A DNA stretch of 64,000 bases from Gallalistipes aquisgranensis. Its GTDB lineage: Bacteria > Bacteroidota > Bacteroidia > Bacteroidales > Rikenellaceae. Location: positions 1 through 64,000 of the forward strand of contig NZ_JADCJY010000001.1 of NCBI RefSeq assembly GCF_014982715.1, in the 5' to 3' direction. The notes under the pieces were generated by a model. It worked only from the letters and a program-made list of their open reading frames with translations. It made no database searches and had not been told where the DNA came from. Shown here piece after piece: positions 29,271 through 35,983 of the stretch (positions are counted from its first letter, which is position 1; each line of letters opens with the position of its first letter). A program made the position numbers and the translations under genes.

Positions 29271-30035
29271 ATGGCAACAGCAAACAAGAAAACGGCCGAG
29301 AACGACTACTCCATGGAGGAGAAGATCGTCGCCCTGTACGACCTCCAGAAGATCGATTCCAAGATCGACGAGATCAACAAGCTGAAAGGGGAGCTGCCCC
29401 TGGAGGTGCAGGATCTGGAGGACGAGGTGGCCGGCCTGCAGACCCGGATCGAGAACATTACCTCCGAGATCGAAGGGCTCAATGCCCAGACCAAGCAGCG
29501 CAAGGATGAGATCGAGCAGGCTAAGGTTTTGATTGCCAAATATGAGGGACAGCAGGACAACGTGCGGAACAACCGCGAGTTCGATTCGCTTTCCAAGGAG
29601 ATCGAGTATCAGAAGCTCGAAATCGAGTTGTGCGAGAAACGGCTGAAAGAGTATTCGGCCGAGATCAAGGTGAAGAAAAAAATGGCGGAGGACGCCGAGA
29701 CCGTGCTGGCCGACCGTAAGATCGACCTGGAGAACAAGAAACAGGAACTCGAAGGCATCGACAAGGAGACCGCCGGCGAGGTGGAGACGCTCAACGCTCA
29801 GAGTGCCAAGGCGCAGGAGAAGATCGACGCCCGGCTGTTGGCCGCCTACAAGCGCATCCGCAGCAATGTCCGCAACGGGTTGGCCGTGGTGACGGTGAAA
29901 CGGGATGCCTGCGGCGGTTGCTTCAACCGGATTCCGCCCCAGCGTCAGTTCGAAATCCGTCAGGGTAAAAAGATCATCGTCTGCGAATACTGCGGACGGA
30001 TTCTGGTCTCCAATCTGCTGGACGAACAGGAATAG
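29271..30035 (+). CDS. Coiled-coil protein with C4 zinc ribbon
   Basis: 254 residues. The first 195 are a long antiparallel coiled coil rich in Lys, Glu and Gln (for example IDEINKLKGELPLEVQDLEDE). The C-terminal 50 residues form a zinc ribbon with CxxC pairs ACGGC and CEYCG. This is the DUF164/CdsZ-like family; related proteins have been proposed as chaperones or nucleic-acid adaptors, without firm function. It is last in the MerR-Nif3-zinc ribbon series and is followed by a clear terminator at 30057-30089. Confidence 0.88.
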   Translation: MATANKKTAENDYSMEEKIVALYDLQKIDSKIDEINKLKGELPLEVQDLEDEVAGLQTRIENITSEIEGLNAQTKQRKDEIEQAKVLIAKYEGQQDNVRNNREFDSLSKEIEYQKLEIELCEKRLKEYSAEIKVKKKMAEDAETVLADRKIDLENKKQELEGIDKETAGEVETLNAQSAKAQEKIDARLLAAYKRIRSNVRNGLAVVTVKRDACGGCFNRIPPQRQFEIRQGKKIIVCEYCGRILVSNLLDEQE

Positions 30036-30089: not shown

Positions 30090-30226
30090 CGGATTCCGGC
30101 AGGGAGGTGAAAGAACGGTACGGGACAGAAAAAACGTTGTTTTTCGCTGCCGCGCGATTTTTTGGCACAGTATTTGATTTTAATCGGGTGCCGCAAGGGG
30201 CGCCCGAACCGATTCGGGAGGCGGAT

Positions 30227-30356: not shown

Positions 30357-30941
30357 ATGAATCTCAAAGCATTAAGCGACCAGGAACTGCTTAATACCTA
30401 TCTTTCGGGCAATGAAAGCGCTATATCCGTTTTGATAGAACGGCACCGCAAAAGGGTTTCCGACTATATCTACATGATGGTCAAAGACCGGGATGTCGCC
30501 GACGATATTTTTCAGGAAACCTTCATCAAGGTGATCCGTGTACTGAGCGAAGGGCGTTACGTCGAGACGGGCAAGTTCCTTTCGTGGGTGTTGCGTATCG
30601 CGCACAATCAGGTCATCGACCATTTCCGCCAGAACAAACAGCAGAATCAGGTGACCGAATCGGATGCGGGGTATGACATTCTGAACAGCCGGAAATTTTC
30701 CGATACCACGGTGGAAGACCACATGGTTTCCGCGCAGATCGAAAGCGACGTGCGCAAACTGATCGACTACCTGCCCGACGAACAGCGCGAAGTGGTGATG
30801 ATGCGCTATTACAGCGGCCTGAGTTTCAAGGAGATCGCCGAGCAGACCGACGTAAGTATCAACACGGCGCTGGGGCGTATGCGGTACGCGTTGATCAATC
30901 TGCGGAAAATGATTCAGGAAAAGCAGCTAATTTTGAGCTGA
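30357..30941 (+). CDS. RNA polymerase ECF-type sigma factor
   Basis: 194-residue sigma-70 family protein with only regions 2 and 4. Region 2 (about 22-92) contains DIFQETFIKVIRVLSEGRY and WVLRIAHNQVIDHFR. Region 4 (about 130-185) contains LPDEQREVVMMRYYSGLSFKEIAEQTDVSINTALGRMRYAL. There is no FecR-type or zinc-finger anti-sigma gene next to it. The only downstream candidate is a 46-codon acidic ORF (30994-31134). It is not linked to a SusC/SusD pair, unlike many ECF factors in this phylum, so a housekeeping or stress role is more likely than glycan sensing. Confidence 0.93.
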   Translation: MNLKALSDQELLNTYLSGNESAISVLIERHRKRVSDYIYMMVKDRDVADDIFQETFIKVIRVLSEGRYVETGKFLSWVLRIAHNQVIDHFRQNKQQNQVTESDAGYDILNSRKFSDTTVEDHMVSAQIESDVRKLIDYLPDEQREVVMMRYYSGLSFKEIAEQTDVSINTALGRMRYALINLRKMIQEKQLILS

Positions 30942-31237: not shown

Positions 31238-33760
31238 GTGAAACAGTCCAAATACGTTAAGACGAAAATCCTGCTGGGATACCTGCTGACGGCGGCGGTG
31301 GCCGTCGTCGCGGTCCGGTACATCTACGGCGAGATGGAGAAGATCGCCCGGGTGGACGAGACCCAGGCCCGCCTCCAGGCGAAACGCAGTCTGATTACCC
31401 GGACGCTTTACCACCTCTACCAGACCGAGAGTTACGGGCAACTGATGCTGGCGGGTTATCTTTCCTATGAAAACCGGTATGTCCGCGAACTCGGGCTCGT
31501 GCAGAAGGATATAGATTCGCTGCGGGTGATTGCCGCCGAATCGGCCGATTCGATGCAGATCATGCGGATCGACAGCATTTCCCTGCTGTTGCGGACGAAA
31601 GCCCGCAGTACGTTCAGCCTGCGTAGCAACGTGCGCAAGGCCGCATCCGGTTCCCTGTACAATGAGAATATCGAGCGCATCCTCTCCGAAAACCGGCCGC
31701 TCGTCCCGGATACGGTCAAACGGAGCGAGGTGATCATCACCAGCGACACGTCGCGCACGGTAACCACGCACGTCCGTAAACGGGGCTTCCTGCGCCGGCT
31801 GGCCGACCTGTTCTCGCCGGAGGAGCCGGATTCGAACGTGGTGATTACCTATTCCACGCGGATCGTGGCCGATACGCTGCCCTTCAATCCGGCCGATACG
31901 ATCGCGGGAGTGTTGCGGAACCTGCAGGGAGACGTCGACCAGCAGCGGCAGCAGATCTACGATCAGGCGTGGGAGGACGGACAACGGATGCGATACAGCA
32001 GCCAGATCGTCAATCAGAAGATCAACCGTCTGATCCTCGATGTCGAGGAGGAGATCAGTCAGCAGGAGCTGCGCCGGTTGGACCTTCAGCACGAGACCGA
32101 ACGCCATGCCTCCCGGGTGGTGGGGGGTATCGCCATCGGGGCCGTGGTGCTCATGCTTTTTTTCCTGCTGCTGATCTGGCGGGACATCGGCAGGGGGAAC
32201 CGTTACCGGCGGGAGCTGGAGGCAGCCAACCGCTATGCGGAGGAGCTGCTGGCCCTGAGGGAACGGCTGATGCTGACCATTACGCACGATATCAAGGCTC
32301 CGCTGGGTTCGGTGATCGGGTATATCGACCTGCTCTCCCGGCTGGTGGAGGATAAGCGGCAGCGGCTCTACCTCCAGAATATGAAGGATTCGTCGGAACA
32401 CCTGCTGCGGCTGGTGAATCAGTTGCTCGACTTCCATCGCCTGGACTGCAATAAGATGGATGTAACCCGGGTTTCGTTCAACCCCGGCCGTCTGTTCGAG
32501 ACGATCGCCGCAGGCTACGGTCCCGTATCGGAGAGCCGGGGCGTGGCGTTCCGTTACGAACCGGGAGACGGGCTCGACCGGGAGTTCGCAGGCGATCCGT
32601 TCCGCATCCGCCAGATCGCGGACAACCTGCTTTCGAACGCGTTCAAATTTACGGACCGGGGCGAAGTCGTGCTCTCCGTGGCGATGGAACCGGAGAGTAC
32701 GCTTCGTTTTTCGGTGCGGGATACCGGACGCGGCATCGGAGAGGCGGAGCGGGAAAAGATATTCCAGGAGTTTGTCCGGCTTCCTTCGGCCCAGGGGATA
32801 GAGGGTTTCGGGCTCGGGCTCTCCATTACCCGCAAACTGATCGAACTGTTGGGCGGCCGCCTCTCGCTTCAGAGCCGGCAGGGGCGGGGAAGTACCTTCA
32901 CTGTCCATATCCCGTTGGAACCGGGGGCGGCTTCGGACTCCGGCATCGAAGAGAGCGGTATAGTGCCCGGACGTACGGCGGCGTCCGATGCCCCGGCCTT
33001 TACGGGCCTCAGCTGCCTGCTCGTGGACGACGACCCTTTGCAGCTGGAACTGATGCAGGCGATGTGTGCCCGCCTGGGGCTCGATGCCGACCGCTGCGGA
33101 AGTCCCGAGTATGCTGCCGAGATGCTTCGCAGACGGCATTATGATTTGATATTTACCGATTTGCAGATGCCTGCCATGGACGGGTTCGGTTTGCTGGCCC
33201 GGGTGCGGGAGGCCGATGCCGGGATTCCCGTGGTGGCCGTTTCCGCGCGTTCGGACCAGTCGCGGGAACGGATGTGCGAAGAGGGTTTCGCCGATATCCT
33301 GCACAAACCTTTCCTGCTGGACGAGCTGGCGGCATGCGTGGCCCGGGTGACGGGACGCGGAGAGGGCCGGCCGGTCCCGGCGGCGGGAAAGCCGGAAGAG
33401 GGACCTGGCGACGGGCCCGATTTCGGAGCATTGACCGCTTTTGCAGGAGACGATCCGGTGGCGGCGGCCGAAATCCTGCGCAGTTTCGTCGTACAGTCCG
33501 GGGAGAACCGGCAGGCGCTGGCGGAGGCGCTTGAGGCCGGCGACATGCCGGCGATCCGAGCGTTGGCCCATAAGATGTTGCCTGTCTTTACGATGTTGGG
33601 TAATTCCGTTCTGACGGTGATCCTGAAATCGCTGGAGATGAACCGCGAAGGCTTGACGGACGATGTGCGGCGTAAAGCGGCGGAAGCAGTGGAACGTATC
33701 GGCGAAGTGACGGAAAAAGCGGAAAAAGAGTTAACTTTGCTTCAAAACGAGAGAGAATGA
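31238..33760 (+). CDS. Hybrid sensor histidine kinase with receiver and HPt domains
   Basis: 840-residue membrane kinase. In order it has a membrane segment (about 8-28), a mostly helical periplasmic domain (about 29-285) and a second membrane segment (about 292-313, GIAIGAVVLMLFFLLLIW). Then come HisKA with phospho-acceptor His350 in THDIKAPLG and a HATPase with GLGLSITRKL. A receiver domain has Asp641 in FTDLQMP, and a C-terminal HPt domain has His778 in LAHKML. All phosphorelay residues are present. The start codon is GTG. Its stop overlaps the ATG of the NtrC-type regulator by 4 bases, so translation is coupled and the regulator is the expected final phosphoryl acceptor. The periplasmic signal is unknown. 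Confidence 0.93.
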   Translation: MKQSKYVKTKILLGYLLTAAVAVVAVRYIYGEMEKIARVDETQARLQAKRSLITRTLYHLYQTESYGQLMLAGYLSYENRYVRELGLVQKDIDSLRVIAAESADSMQIMRIDSISLLLRTKARSTFSLRSNVRKAASGSLYNENIERILSENRPLVPDTVKRSEVIITSDTSRTVTTHVRKRGFLRRLADLFSPEEPDSNVVITYSTRIVADTLPFNPADTIAGVLRNLQGDVDQQRQQIYDQAWEDGQRMRYSSQIVNQKINRLILDVEEEISQQELRRLDLQHETERHASRVVGGIAIGAVVLMLFFLLLIWRDIGRGNRYRRELEAANRYAEELLALRERLMLTITHDIKAPLGSVIGYIDLLSRLVEDKRQRLYLQNMKDSSEHLLRLVNQLLDFHRLDCNKMDVTRVSFNPGRLFETIAAGYGPVSESRGVAFRYEPGDGLDREFAGDPFRIRQIADNLLSNAFKFTDRGEVVLSVAMEPESTLRFSVRDTGRGIGEAEREKIFQEFVRLPSAQGIEGFGLGLSITRKLIELLGGRLSLQSRQGRGSTFTVHIPLEPGAASDSGIEESGIVPGRTAASDAPAFTGLSCLLVDDDPLQLELMQAMCARLGLDADRCGSPEYAAEMLRRRHYDLIFTDLQMPAMDGFGLLARVREADAGIPVVAVSARSDQSRERMCEEGFADILHKPFLLDELAACVARVTGRGEGRPVPAAGKPEEGPGDGPDFGALTAFAGDDPVAAAEILRSFVVQSGENRQALAEALEAGDMPAIRALAHKMLPVFTMLGNSVLTVILKSLEMNREGLTDDVRRKAAEAVERIGEVTEKAEKELTLLQNERE

Positions 33761-35142
33761 GAAGACTGCTGATCGTGGAAGACGACATCACTTTTGCGCT
33801 GATGCTCAAGACGTGGCTCACCCGAAAGGGGTTCGAGGCGGAGACGGTTTCCCGTGTCGATGCGGCACAGCAGCGTTTGGAAGCTTCCGACTTTTCGCTG
33901 GTGCTGACCGATATGCGTCTGCCCGACCGCGACGGCATTTTCCTGTTGCAGTGGATCGCGGACAACCGGCCGTCGCTTCCGGCGATCGTGATGACCAGCT
34001 ATGCCGATATTCAGACCGCCGTGCGCAGCATGAAGCTCGGGGCAAGGGATTATGTCGCCAAGCCGGTGAATCCGGAGGAGTTGCTCGCCAAGATCGAGGA
34101 GGCGCTTTCCGCGCCCCGGAACGAGACGGCGGACGGAAAGGCTACTGCCGGGAAAAACGTCCCGGGAACGGAGGCTTACACGGGGTTCGTGGAGGGACGC
34201 AGCGAGGCGGCCCGCAGGTTGTACGATTATGTGCGTCTGGTGGCCCCGACCAATATGTCGGTGCTGGTCAACGGTGCGAGCGGGACCGGGAAGGAGCATA
34301 TCGCCCGCATGATCCACGAGGGGAGCAAGCGGCGGGGAAAGCCGTTCGTGGCGATCGACTGCGGAGCCATTCCCCGCGATCTGGCCGCTTCGGAGTTTTT
34401 CGGTCACGTGAAAGGTTCGTTTACGGGGGCGCAGACCGACAAGCGGGGCGCTTTCGAGGCGGCGAACGGGGGGACCCTTTTTCTGGACGAGATCGGCAAC
34501 CTGAGCTACGAGGTGCAGGTACAGTTGCTCCGGGCGCTGCAGGAGCGGAGGATTCGTCCCGTGGGCGGTACGGAGGAGGTCGAGGTGGACATCCGTCTGG
34601 TATCGGCGACCAACGAGAACCTGGAGGCGGCTATTGCGGAGAAAAATTTCCGTGAAGACCTTTTTCACCGGATCAACGAGTTCACGCTCCGGATGCCCGA
34701 TCTGCGCGAACAACGGGAGGACATCATGCTGTATGCCGATTTTTTTCTCGACCAGGCCAACCGGGAACTGGAACGCAGCGTAGTCGGGTTCGATGCCGGA
34801 GCCGTAGAGCGGATGATGGCATACGACTGGCCCGGAAATCTGCGGCAGTTGAAAAATGCGGTGCGCTGTGCCACCCTTCTGGCTTCGTCCGATTATATTA
34901 CCTGCCGGGAATTGCCGGCCGAAGTGACACGTCCTGTTCCTGTACCGGTGCCTTCCGCTGCCCCGGCATCTGTTCCGGGTGCGATTCCCGTGCCGTCCGT
35001 GTTGCGTGACCGTGCTACGGAGATCGAACAGATCCGCCAGGCCCTGCGGCTCAGTGGCGACAACAAGTCGAAGGCCGCCCGTCTGCTGGGTATCGACCGC
35101 AAGACGCTTTACAACAAACTCAAGGCCTACGGCATCGAGTGA
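33757..35142 (+). CDS. Sigma-54-dependent response regulator (NtrC family)
   Basis: 461 residues: receiver with phospho-acceptor Asp52 (TDMRLPDRDG); AAA+ domain with Walker A GASGTGKE (173-180), GSFTGA loop (220-225) that contacts sigma-54, and Walker B LFLDEI (241-246). A Pro/Val/Ala-rich linker (about 392-412) leads to a Fis-type helix-turn-helix (GDNKSKAARLLGIDRKTLYNKL). It overlaps the kinase gene by ATGA. Such proteins activate promoters bound by RpoN from upstream sites. A candidate promoter and binding sites lie directly downstream (35148-35296), making the next gene its most likely target. Confidence 0.95.
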   Translation: MRRLLIVEDDITFALMLKTWLTRKGFEAETVSRVDAAQQRLEASDFSLVLTDMRLPDRDGIFLLQWIADNRPSLPAIVMTSYADIQTAVRSMKLGARDYVAKPVNPEELLAKIEEALSAPRNETADGKATAGKNVPGTEAYTGFVEGRSEAARRLYDYVRLVAPTNMSVLVNGASGTGKEHIARMIHEGSKRRGKPFVAIDCGAIPRDLAASEFFGHVKGSFTGAQTDKRGAFEAANGGTLFLDEIGNLSYEVQVQLLRALQERRIRPVGGTEEVEVDIRLVSATNENLEAAIAEKNFREDLFHRINEFTLRMPDLREQREDIMLYADFFLDQANRELERSVVGFDAGAVERMMAYDWPGNLRQLKNAVRCATLLASSDYITCRELPAEVTRPVPVPVPSAAPASVPGAIPVPSVLRDRATEIEQIRQALRLSGDNKSKAARLLGIDRKTLYNKLKAYGIE

Positions 35143-35147
35143 CCGGG

Positions 35148-35204
35148 TGTGGATGGGGTGTGTCCTGTGGATTTATTCCACACTTTTCCCTGCTTTATTC
35201 CACA
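35148..35204 (+). promoter_or_regulatory. Candidate activator-binding array (TGTGGA half-sites)
   Basis: Four copies of the same hexamer: TGTGGA at 35148-35153 and 35166-35171, and its complement TCCACA at 35177-35182 and 35199-35204. The middle two form the palindrome TGTGGA-TTTAT-TCCACA. The last two are part of an 11-base direct repeat TTTATTCCACA spaced 22 bases, two helical turns. The palindrome lies about 120 bases upstream of the sigma-54-like element, a normal distance for an enhancer. Confidence 0.65.
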
Positions 35205-35280
35205 TTTTTCTTTGCGGTGAAATTTCTGGCATTTTATTATTGTATTGATTTATAGTGTTTTGAATTTTTAGTCTGTGCTT

Positions 35281-35296
35281 TGGTACGCCGGTTGAA
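35281..35296 (+). promoter_or_regulatory. Candidate sigma-54 promoter
   Basis: TGGTACG-N4-TTGAA matches the -24/-12 consensus TGGCACG-N4-TTGCA with correct spacing and two substitutions (C to T at the fourth base, C to A in the -12 GC). I find no TAnnTTTG box in the 226-base gap. The predicted leader is about 60 bases. Confidence 0.55.
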
Positions 35297-35368
35297 CTGA
35301 AAAAGGGCAAAGGAAGTTCAGAAAAACCGAATAAGAAACTAAAGTATTCACATTAAAAATTCAAAGAG

Positions 35369-35911
35369 ATGAAAAAGTCAGTTGTTTCCGTAGCCATGTT
35401 CCTGATGTTTCTGGGTAGTGCAACGCTCGTAGCAGCACAGACCCCGGCTCCGCAGACTCCCGAGTCGCCGAAGGAACAGCCCGCCGAGCCCGCAAAGGAT
35501 ACCCCGAAAGAGGAGCCCAAGAAAGAGGAACCGAAACAGATTCTTTTCTCGGTGGCCCAGGAGCCCGAAGCCGAACCTGCCGATACGACCAAGAAGGCCG
35601 AACCCAAGAAGGACGCCGTTCTGATCGCCCAGGAGCCGGCCAAGGAGGCCCCGGCCGATACGGTGAAGAAAGCCGAGCCCGCAAAGGCATCCATCCTGAT
35701 CGCACAGGAACCAGCCAAGGAGACTCCGGCAGAACCGAAGAAGGAAAAGGACGAACCGGCCAAAACCGATCCGAAAAAGTGTCCCGAATCGGGTATTCTG
35801 ATCGCACAGGCTCCTCAGGCTCCGGCAGAACCTGCCAAAGAGGCTCCCAAAAAGGATGAACCCAAGAAAGAGGAACCCGCCAAGGAAGCTCCTGCTCCTT
35901 CGCTGAGTTAA
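35369..35911 (+). CDS. Secreted Lys/Pro/Glu-rich repeat protein
   Basis: 180 residues with a clear signal peptide (about 1-23, ending VAAQ) and then a low-complexity region of Pro, Glu, Lys and Ala. Four imperfect repeats each begin with a short hydrophobic block: QILFSVAQEP, VLIAQEPAKEAPADT, ILIAQEPAKETPAEP and ILIAQAPQAPAEP. Between them are KKAEPKK-like spacers. There is a single Cys near residue 136 and no lipobox. No enzymatic domain is visible. It resembles periplasmic spacer or PG-associated low-complexity proteins only in composition; I do not recognise a family. It lies behind the candidate sigma-54 promoter and is followed by a terminator, so it is its own transcript. Confidence 0.8.
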   Translation: MKKSVVSVAMFLMFLGSATLVAAQTPAPQTPESPKEQPAEPAKDTPKEEPKKEEPKQILFSVAQEPEAEPADTTKKAEPKKDAVLIAQEPAKEAPADTVKKAEPAKASILIAQEPAKETPAEPKKEKDEPAKTDPKKCPESGILIAQAPQAPAEPAKEAPKKDEPKKEEPAKEAPAPSLS

Positions 35912-35954: not shown

Positions 35955-35983
35955 GTCTCCGGGAAACCGGAGGCTTTTCTTTT
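35955..35983 (+). terminator. Terminator after repeat protein gene
   Basis: An 8-bp stem (GTCTCCGG with CCGGAGGC, one T-G pair) with a GAAA loop is followed by TTTTCTTTT. Confidence 0.88.

Follow-up and report, generated by a model that had tools for sequence, protein, structure and literature searches.

A putative sigma-54 promoter with an upstream TGTGGA activator array beside a hybrid kinase and NtrC-type regulator pair in Gallalistipes aquisgranensis

In Gallalistipes aquisgranensis, a gene for a small exported protein follows a hybrid kinase gene and an NtrC-type regulator gene, which raises the question of what promoter serves this gene and whether the adjacent pair controls it. We analysed a window of 64,000 nucleotides (the whole stretch of DNA at positions 1 to 64,000 of contig NZ_JADCJY010000001.1). 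An earlier note, made from the letters alone, had read the gap between the regulator gene and the exported-protein gene (35143-35368) as an RpoN promoter with enhancer sites. Our analysis points to a similar answer, namely that the gap is probably a sigma-54 promoter with an enhancer, driven by the adjacent kinase and regulator in a ZraPSR-like envelope-response circuit (probability about 0.88).

The gap and its neighbouring genes

The kinase gene (31238-33760, + strand; the GTG start at 31238 is tentative) encodes a hybrid sensor kinase with Pfam HisKA, HATPase, and receiver domains and a C-terminal stretch that appeared Hpt-like by eye. The N-terminal sensor had no Pfam match. AF2 modelled it (mean pLDDT 76) as a bundle of helices into which a hairpin is inserted, and a PDB fold search with this model returned nothing under E 0.001, LytS-N-like four-helix bundles being weak matches. 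Full-length kinase orthologs (29-82% identity, tblastn) adjoined the regulator in many relatives. The regulator gene (33757-35142, + strand) encodes Pfam receiver, sigma-54 interaction AAA+, and Fis-type HTH domains. The GAFTGA loop of bEBPs contacts sigma-54; in this regulator the loop reads GSFTGA, an alanine-to-serine variant present in 66 of 76 orthologs, the other 10 carrying GAFTGA. A search for rpoN, proposed in the earlier note as a check, found the gene encoded in the genome (E 4.6e-52). About 1.2 kb upstream of the kinase gene, 29271-30035 encodes a C4 zinc-ribbon coiled-coil protein (Zn_ribbon_9) of the HP0958/FlgZ type, and the H. pylori protein of this type guards RpoN against turnover (PMC3372290). 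A second -24/-12-like element, TTTTTTGGCACAGTATTTG, was located at 30163-30176 in the gap before an ECF sigma gene (30357-30941) and was kept at a similar position in genomes G001, G023, and G003; no TGTGGA array was seen with it, and this element is perhaps served by another sigma-54 activator.

Direct reading of the sequence verified that the gap contains four TGTGGA half-sites, two of which form a palindrome. The first half-site lies at 35148-35153 (+ strand), and an extra upstream half-site is likewise carried by G001 and G035. The predicted core activator site at 35166-35182 is a perfect palindrome, TGTGGA-TTTAT-TCCACA (TGTGGATTTATTCCACA), with arms at 35166-35171 and 35177-35182 and an N5 spacer. 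A conserved second half-site on the - strand (35199-35204, TCCACA on the + strand) lies 22 bp past the first TCCACA. The sequence TTTATTCCACA occurred at both 35172-35182 and 35194-35204, confirming the 11-base direct repeat with a 22-bp step that had been described for two of the half-sites. Among 20,000 versions of the gap shuffled by dinucleotide, one contained the palindrome and none contained four or more half-sites, indicating that the array is far beyond chance, and a chance origin was discarded.

The earlier note had also placed TGGTACG-N4-TTGAA with -24/-12 spacing in the gap. This sequence was present at 35281-35295 (+ strand), 98-99 bp beyond the palindrome, as TGGTAC-N5-TTGA (TGGTAC 35281-35286, TTGA 35292-35295), and by the sigma-54 convention transcription is predicted to start at about 35307. 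The description was imprecise in one respect: the GG and the spacing fit GG-N10-GC, but the -12 dinucleotide is GA (GG-N10-GA) rather than the canonical GC. On sequence alone the match was weak, the pattern having 154 occurrences in the same 20,000 shuffles and two matches in 64 kb versus one expected, and the support for the element therefore comes from its conservation. Across 77 representatives, the base at the C of the -12 GC was A in 29, C in 18, G in 15, and T in 15; conservation of this C is missing, which is unusual for a sigma-54 promoter. The TTG before the variable base kept its exact spacing across the 77 representative promoters, with A favoured at the variable base in small-protein promoters and C in RND promoters.

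The candidate target gene (35369-35911, + strand), whose position is conserved in relatives, encodes a predicted small exported protein of 180 aa with a signal peptide and four copies of a hydrophobic-AQ motif set in a Pro/Glu/Lys-rich chain. No Pfam match was found for this protein. Comparison with the same-genus ortholog gave a dN of 0.106 and a dS of 0.998, values that indicate purifying selection; a non-coding target was discarded (dN/dS 0.11). The likely transcript end is a hairpin, CTCCGG-GAAA-CCGGAG, with a T-rich tail (35957-35983, + strand), which was identified by eye and was not listed by the terminator scan.

Conservation, spacing, and co-occurrence with the regulator

Orthologs were gathered from family genomes and from named genomes across Bacteroidales. 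The array (the palindrome with a half-site approximately 20-22 bp on), the -24/-12 element, and a small-exported-protein gene adjoined many regulator orthologs, including those of B. fragilis and B. xylanisolvens; the check on related species that the earlier note had proposed thus found both the array and the element conserved. The composite motif was detected in 22 of 200 family genomes and its reversed control in none (0/200). When a genome was counted as regulator-bearing at a regulator match of E<=1e-120 (42 of 200), the motif was present in 22 of the 42 such genomes versus 0 of the 158 others (Fisher p 4.6e-18). An order-level sample contained the motif in 7 of 393 genomes (control 0). 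For a somewhat relaxed motif, matches were listed at 27 places, spread over 17 of the 21 named genomes, and the control matched once. About half of the regulator-bearing family genomes had no exact composite match, which we attribute to divergence (as in G022, G023, and G061) or assembly gaps. A site adjoining the regulator was not found for the Parabacteroides orthologs and some Bacteroides orthologs; P. gordonii has a site ahead of a SusC gene. Exact palindromes with no recognisable -24/-12 element were also seen in G173 and G201 (loci L151, 6176-6192, and L152, 2159-2175), in the interval that separates an RND operon from a GH2-like gene.

The spacing was examined in an unconditioned test on every palindrome lying no more than 700 bp 3' of a regulator gene in Bacteroidales (49 distinct). 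GGYAY-N5-TTG was found at 84-113 bp from 46 of these 49 palindromes and at no other distance within 230 bp, and the mirrored upstream side gave one match; the sequences share ancestry, and these counts are not independent. The gaps between palindrome and -24/-12 element fell at 86-90, 97-101, and 108-112 bp, classes spaced 11 bp or about one helical turn apart, and representatives less than 60% identical in the spacer showed the same three distance classes. Such spacing is the pattern expected if the activator and the polymerase need a fixed helix face. Several features not demanded by the search were conserved as well, namely an almost entirely A/T N5 spacer, the second half-site approximately 20-22 bp on, and T enrichment (a T-run) before the -24 element.

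Other explanations of the gap were weighed against these results. The palindrome might chiefly be the terminator of the kinase-regulator operon, with a coincidental -24/-12 match downstream. It can indeed form a 6-bp hairpin (35166-35182), which the terminator scan flagged, and RNA of this segment folded better than shuffles (z -2.2). However, the same arrangement stands ahead of SusC, RND, and small-protein genes that have no preceding regulator gene, and the 11-bp-step spacing to the -24 element likewise argues against this explanation, which we consider unlikely; the palindrome could nevertheless have a dual role as activator site and terminator hairpin. About as unlikely is that the sites serve another sigma-54 activator of the genome rather than the adjacent regulator. 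NtrC-type paralogs are numerous (18 matches to the regulator query), but the motif-containing family genomes were all regulator-bearing (22/22, with 0/158 of the genomes lacking the regulator), other tested genomes also have NtrC-type genes, and the array was absent beside RteB-type paralogs. The motif tracks this regulator rather than NtrC-type genes at large, which supports the earlier proposal that the adjacent pair is the natural controller.

A housekeeping Bacteroidota (-33/-7) promoter for the gene, with TGTGGA being the site of another factor, appears very improbable. In its favour, the element in the gap has no canonical -12 GC. In contrast, the gap contains no TANNTTTG on either strand, the two matches in the scan lying elsewhere (33732 and 36065), so that the earlier statement that the gap has no TAnnTTTG box held. 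The -24/-12 pair, moreover, recurs at an unchanging distance in dozens of sequences that have diverged, and other targets show the consensus TTGC. With rpoN present and the array and -24/-12 element conserved, the layout of an RpoN promoter with enhancer sites is supported at the sequence level.

Candidate targets in this genome and in relatives

The earlier note had suggested a genome-wide search for TGTGGA-N5-TCCACA sites as a way to find the regulon. The genome contains exactly two exact palindromes, including that of the window, each followed 87-99 bp later by a -24/-12 element, and the composite matches were still two when the half-sites were relaxed. The second site (contig 1, 2,195,611) lies upstream of a SusC/SusD operon and consists of palindromes in tandem, spaced 21 bp apart, with TGGCAC-N5-TTGCTT, which has the consensus -12 sequence TTGC. 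The same site layout was found at the orthologous SusCD of relatives (SusC 72-76% and SusD 77-80% identity) in G165, G102, G206, G184, G187, G151, and G211. G151 and G211 have a single operon with the arrangement site-SusC-SusD-kinase-regulator, which physically links the transporter and the regulator. A PUL-specific regulator was discarded, since SusCD is conserved but its neighbours vary between genomes. Candidate targets in the named genomes were RND-pump membrane-fusion genes, other SusC-type receptors, and small exported or periplasmic proteins; those in Bacteroides included RND-pump membrane-fusion genes and SusC. No informative Pfam match was found for the small periplasmic targets. The suggestion of a dedicated envelope signalling circuit stood as regards the circuit, but "dedicated" was slightly too narrow, because sites also occur at SusCD and, in relatives, at RND genes.

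The gene adjoining the regulator in relatives usually encodes a small exported protein, mostly acidic. In genus g4, where the kinase is convergent, the region upstream of the kinase has a site and, after it, a gene whose exported product is small, acidic, and repeat-bearing. The exported proteins (window 35369-35911; L129, L128, L229, L234) often combine repeats of lineage-specific short hydrophobic motifs (ILIAQEP; FMLNDSPEGE; FAMFDSVxPDT; LFCLTEEP) with an acidic/proline stretch. In the lineages of the window and of g4, these repeats look like the region where the signal peptide is cleaved, as a duplication of the N-terminus might produce. The promoter was retained in G061, G139, and G202, where an exported protein was not evident. 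Loci L059, L066, and L071 retained the promoter and array but had lost any ORF for an exported protein; what persists in them is a conserved MRKEFA mini-ORF and a conserved 3' element, TTTAGTT(A)AACAATTGTTTGCCTGGTA, ahead of a terminator. This element was also present 3' of intact genes in relatives, and the remnant possibly has an RNA function.

The proposed circuit and known systems

From known NtrC biology, we propose that the membrane-bound hybrid kinase would pass phosphate to the NtrC-type regulator, which, once phosphorylated, would assemble on the palindrome and neighbouring half-sites approximately 100-160 bp upstream of the start. By DNA looping, the assembled regulator would touch RNA polymerase-sigma-54 at 35281-35295, and activation with ATP-driven opening would start transcription of the exported-protein gene at about 35307. 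The SusC/SusD operon elsewhere in the genome would be driven by this regulator too, as would, in related Bacteroidales, RND-efflux genes and genes for further small proteins, exported or periplasmic. A small exported protein, an efflux pump, and an outer-membrane transporter taken together suggest envelope stress; envelope stress as the signal itself and a feedback or protective role of the small protein are our guesses. A broader proposal, which we regard as rather doubtful, is that a Bacteroidales-wide envelope-stress phosphorelay with sigma-54 co-regulates a fast-evolving exported repeat peptide, SusCD, and RND pumps, the peptide, whose internal repeats look like its signal-peptide cleavage region in several lineages, being a feedback ligand or processed cargo.

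The closest functional analogue appears to be ZraPSR of Salmonella and E. coli, in which ZraR acts at sigma-54 promoters to switch on zraP and zraSR upon zinc and envelope stress (PMC4987338); at the sequence level, the window likewise appears to combine a kinase, an NtrC-type regulator, and an adjacent sigma-54-driven small exported protein. In contrast to ZraPSR, the window kinase is hybrid, with a receiver and an Hpt-like stretch, the target gene lies downstream and is not divergent, and the predicted regulon includes SusCD. The window protein is acidic/Pro-rich with no Pfam match, whereas ZraP is a zinc-binding chaperone. NtrC/glnA enhancers are similar in having a 17-bp palindrome, an N5 spacer, and tandem sites about 100 bp upstream of the -24/-12 element. 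The NtrC half-site, however, is TGCACC rather than TGTGGA, and the window differs in its tandem spacing of 21-22 bp and in having envelope rather than nitrogen targets. In HTCS and ECF-sigma/anti-sigma systems of Bacteroides, SusC/SusD operons are also regulated by an adjacent signalling system, whereas the window circuit would use sigma-54 and an enhancer-binding protein.

In the open-access literature searched, we found no description of this circuit, of sigma-54 control joining SusC/SusD and RND pumps, or of sigma-54 control of polysaccharide utilization loci. The only open-access work found on sigma-54 regulons in Bacteroides (PMC12316311) predicts other Bacteroidia sigma-54 targets and does not name SusC. 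Sigma-54 control in gut Bacteroidota is nearly uncharted, and our proposal, if true, would bring RND efflux pumps and SusC/SusD transporters together in a single envelope circuit governed by sigma-54. It provides a precise motif, a helically phased promoter architecture, and a defined regulon that are testable in genetically tractable species, B. fragilis among them, and the variable -12 position could be used to study promoter recognition by Bacteroidota sigma-54.

RteA/RteB of Bacteroides conjugative transposons (CTnDOT) also pair a kinase with an NtrC-type regulator, but their setting is a mobile element. Paralogs 46-48% identical to the window regulator, which we take to be RteB-like, had no TGTGGA array at their loci, and L024/L025 branched apart from the ortholog group on long branches. 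A mobile RteB circuit was discarded. In B. thetaiotaomicron, tetQ-rteA-rteB raises the chromosomal AcrB-type pump gene BT2118 39-fold (PMC1976400). Because RND genes are candidate regulon targets in other Bacteroides, cross-talk of RteB with the sites may be raised as a possibility.
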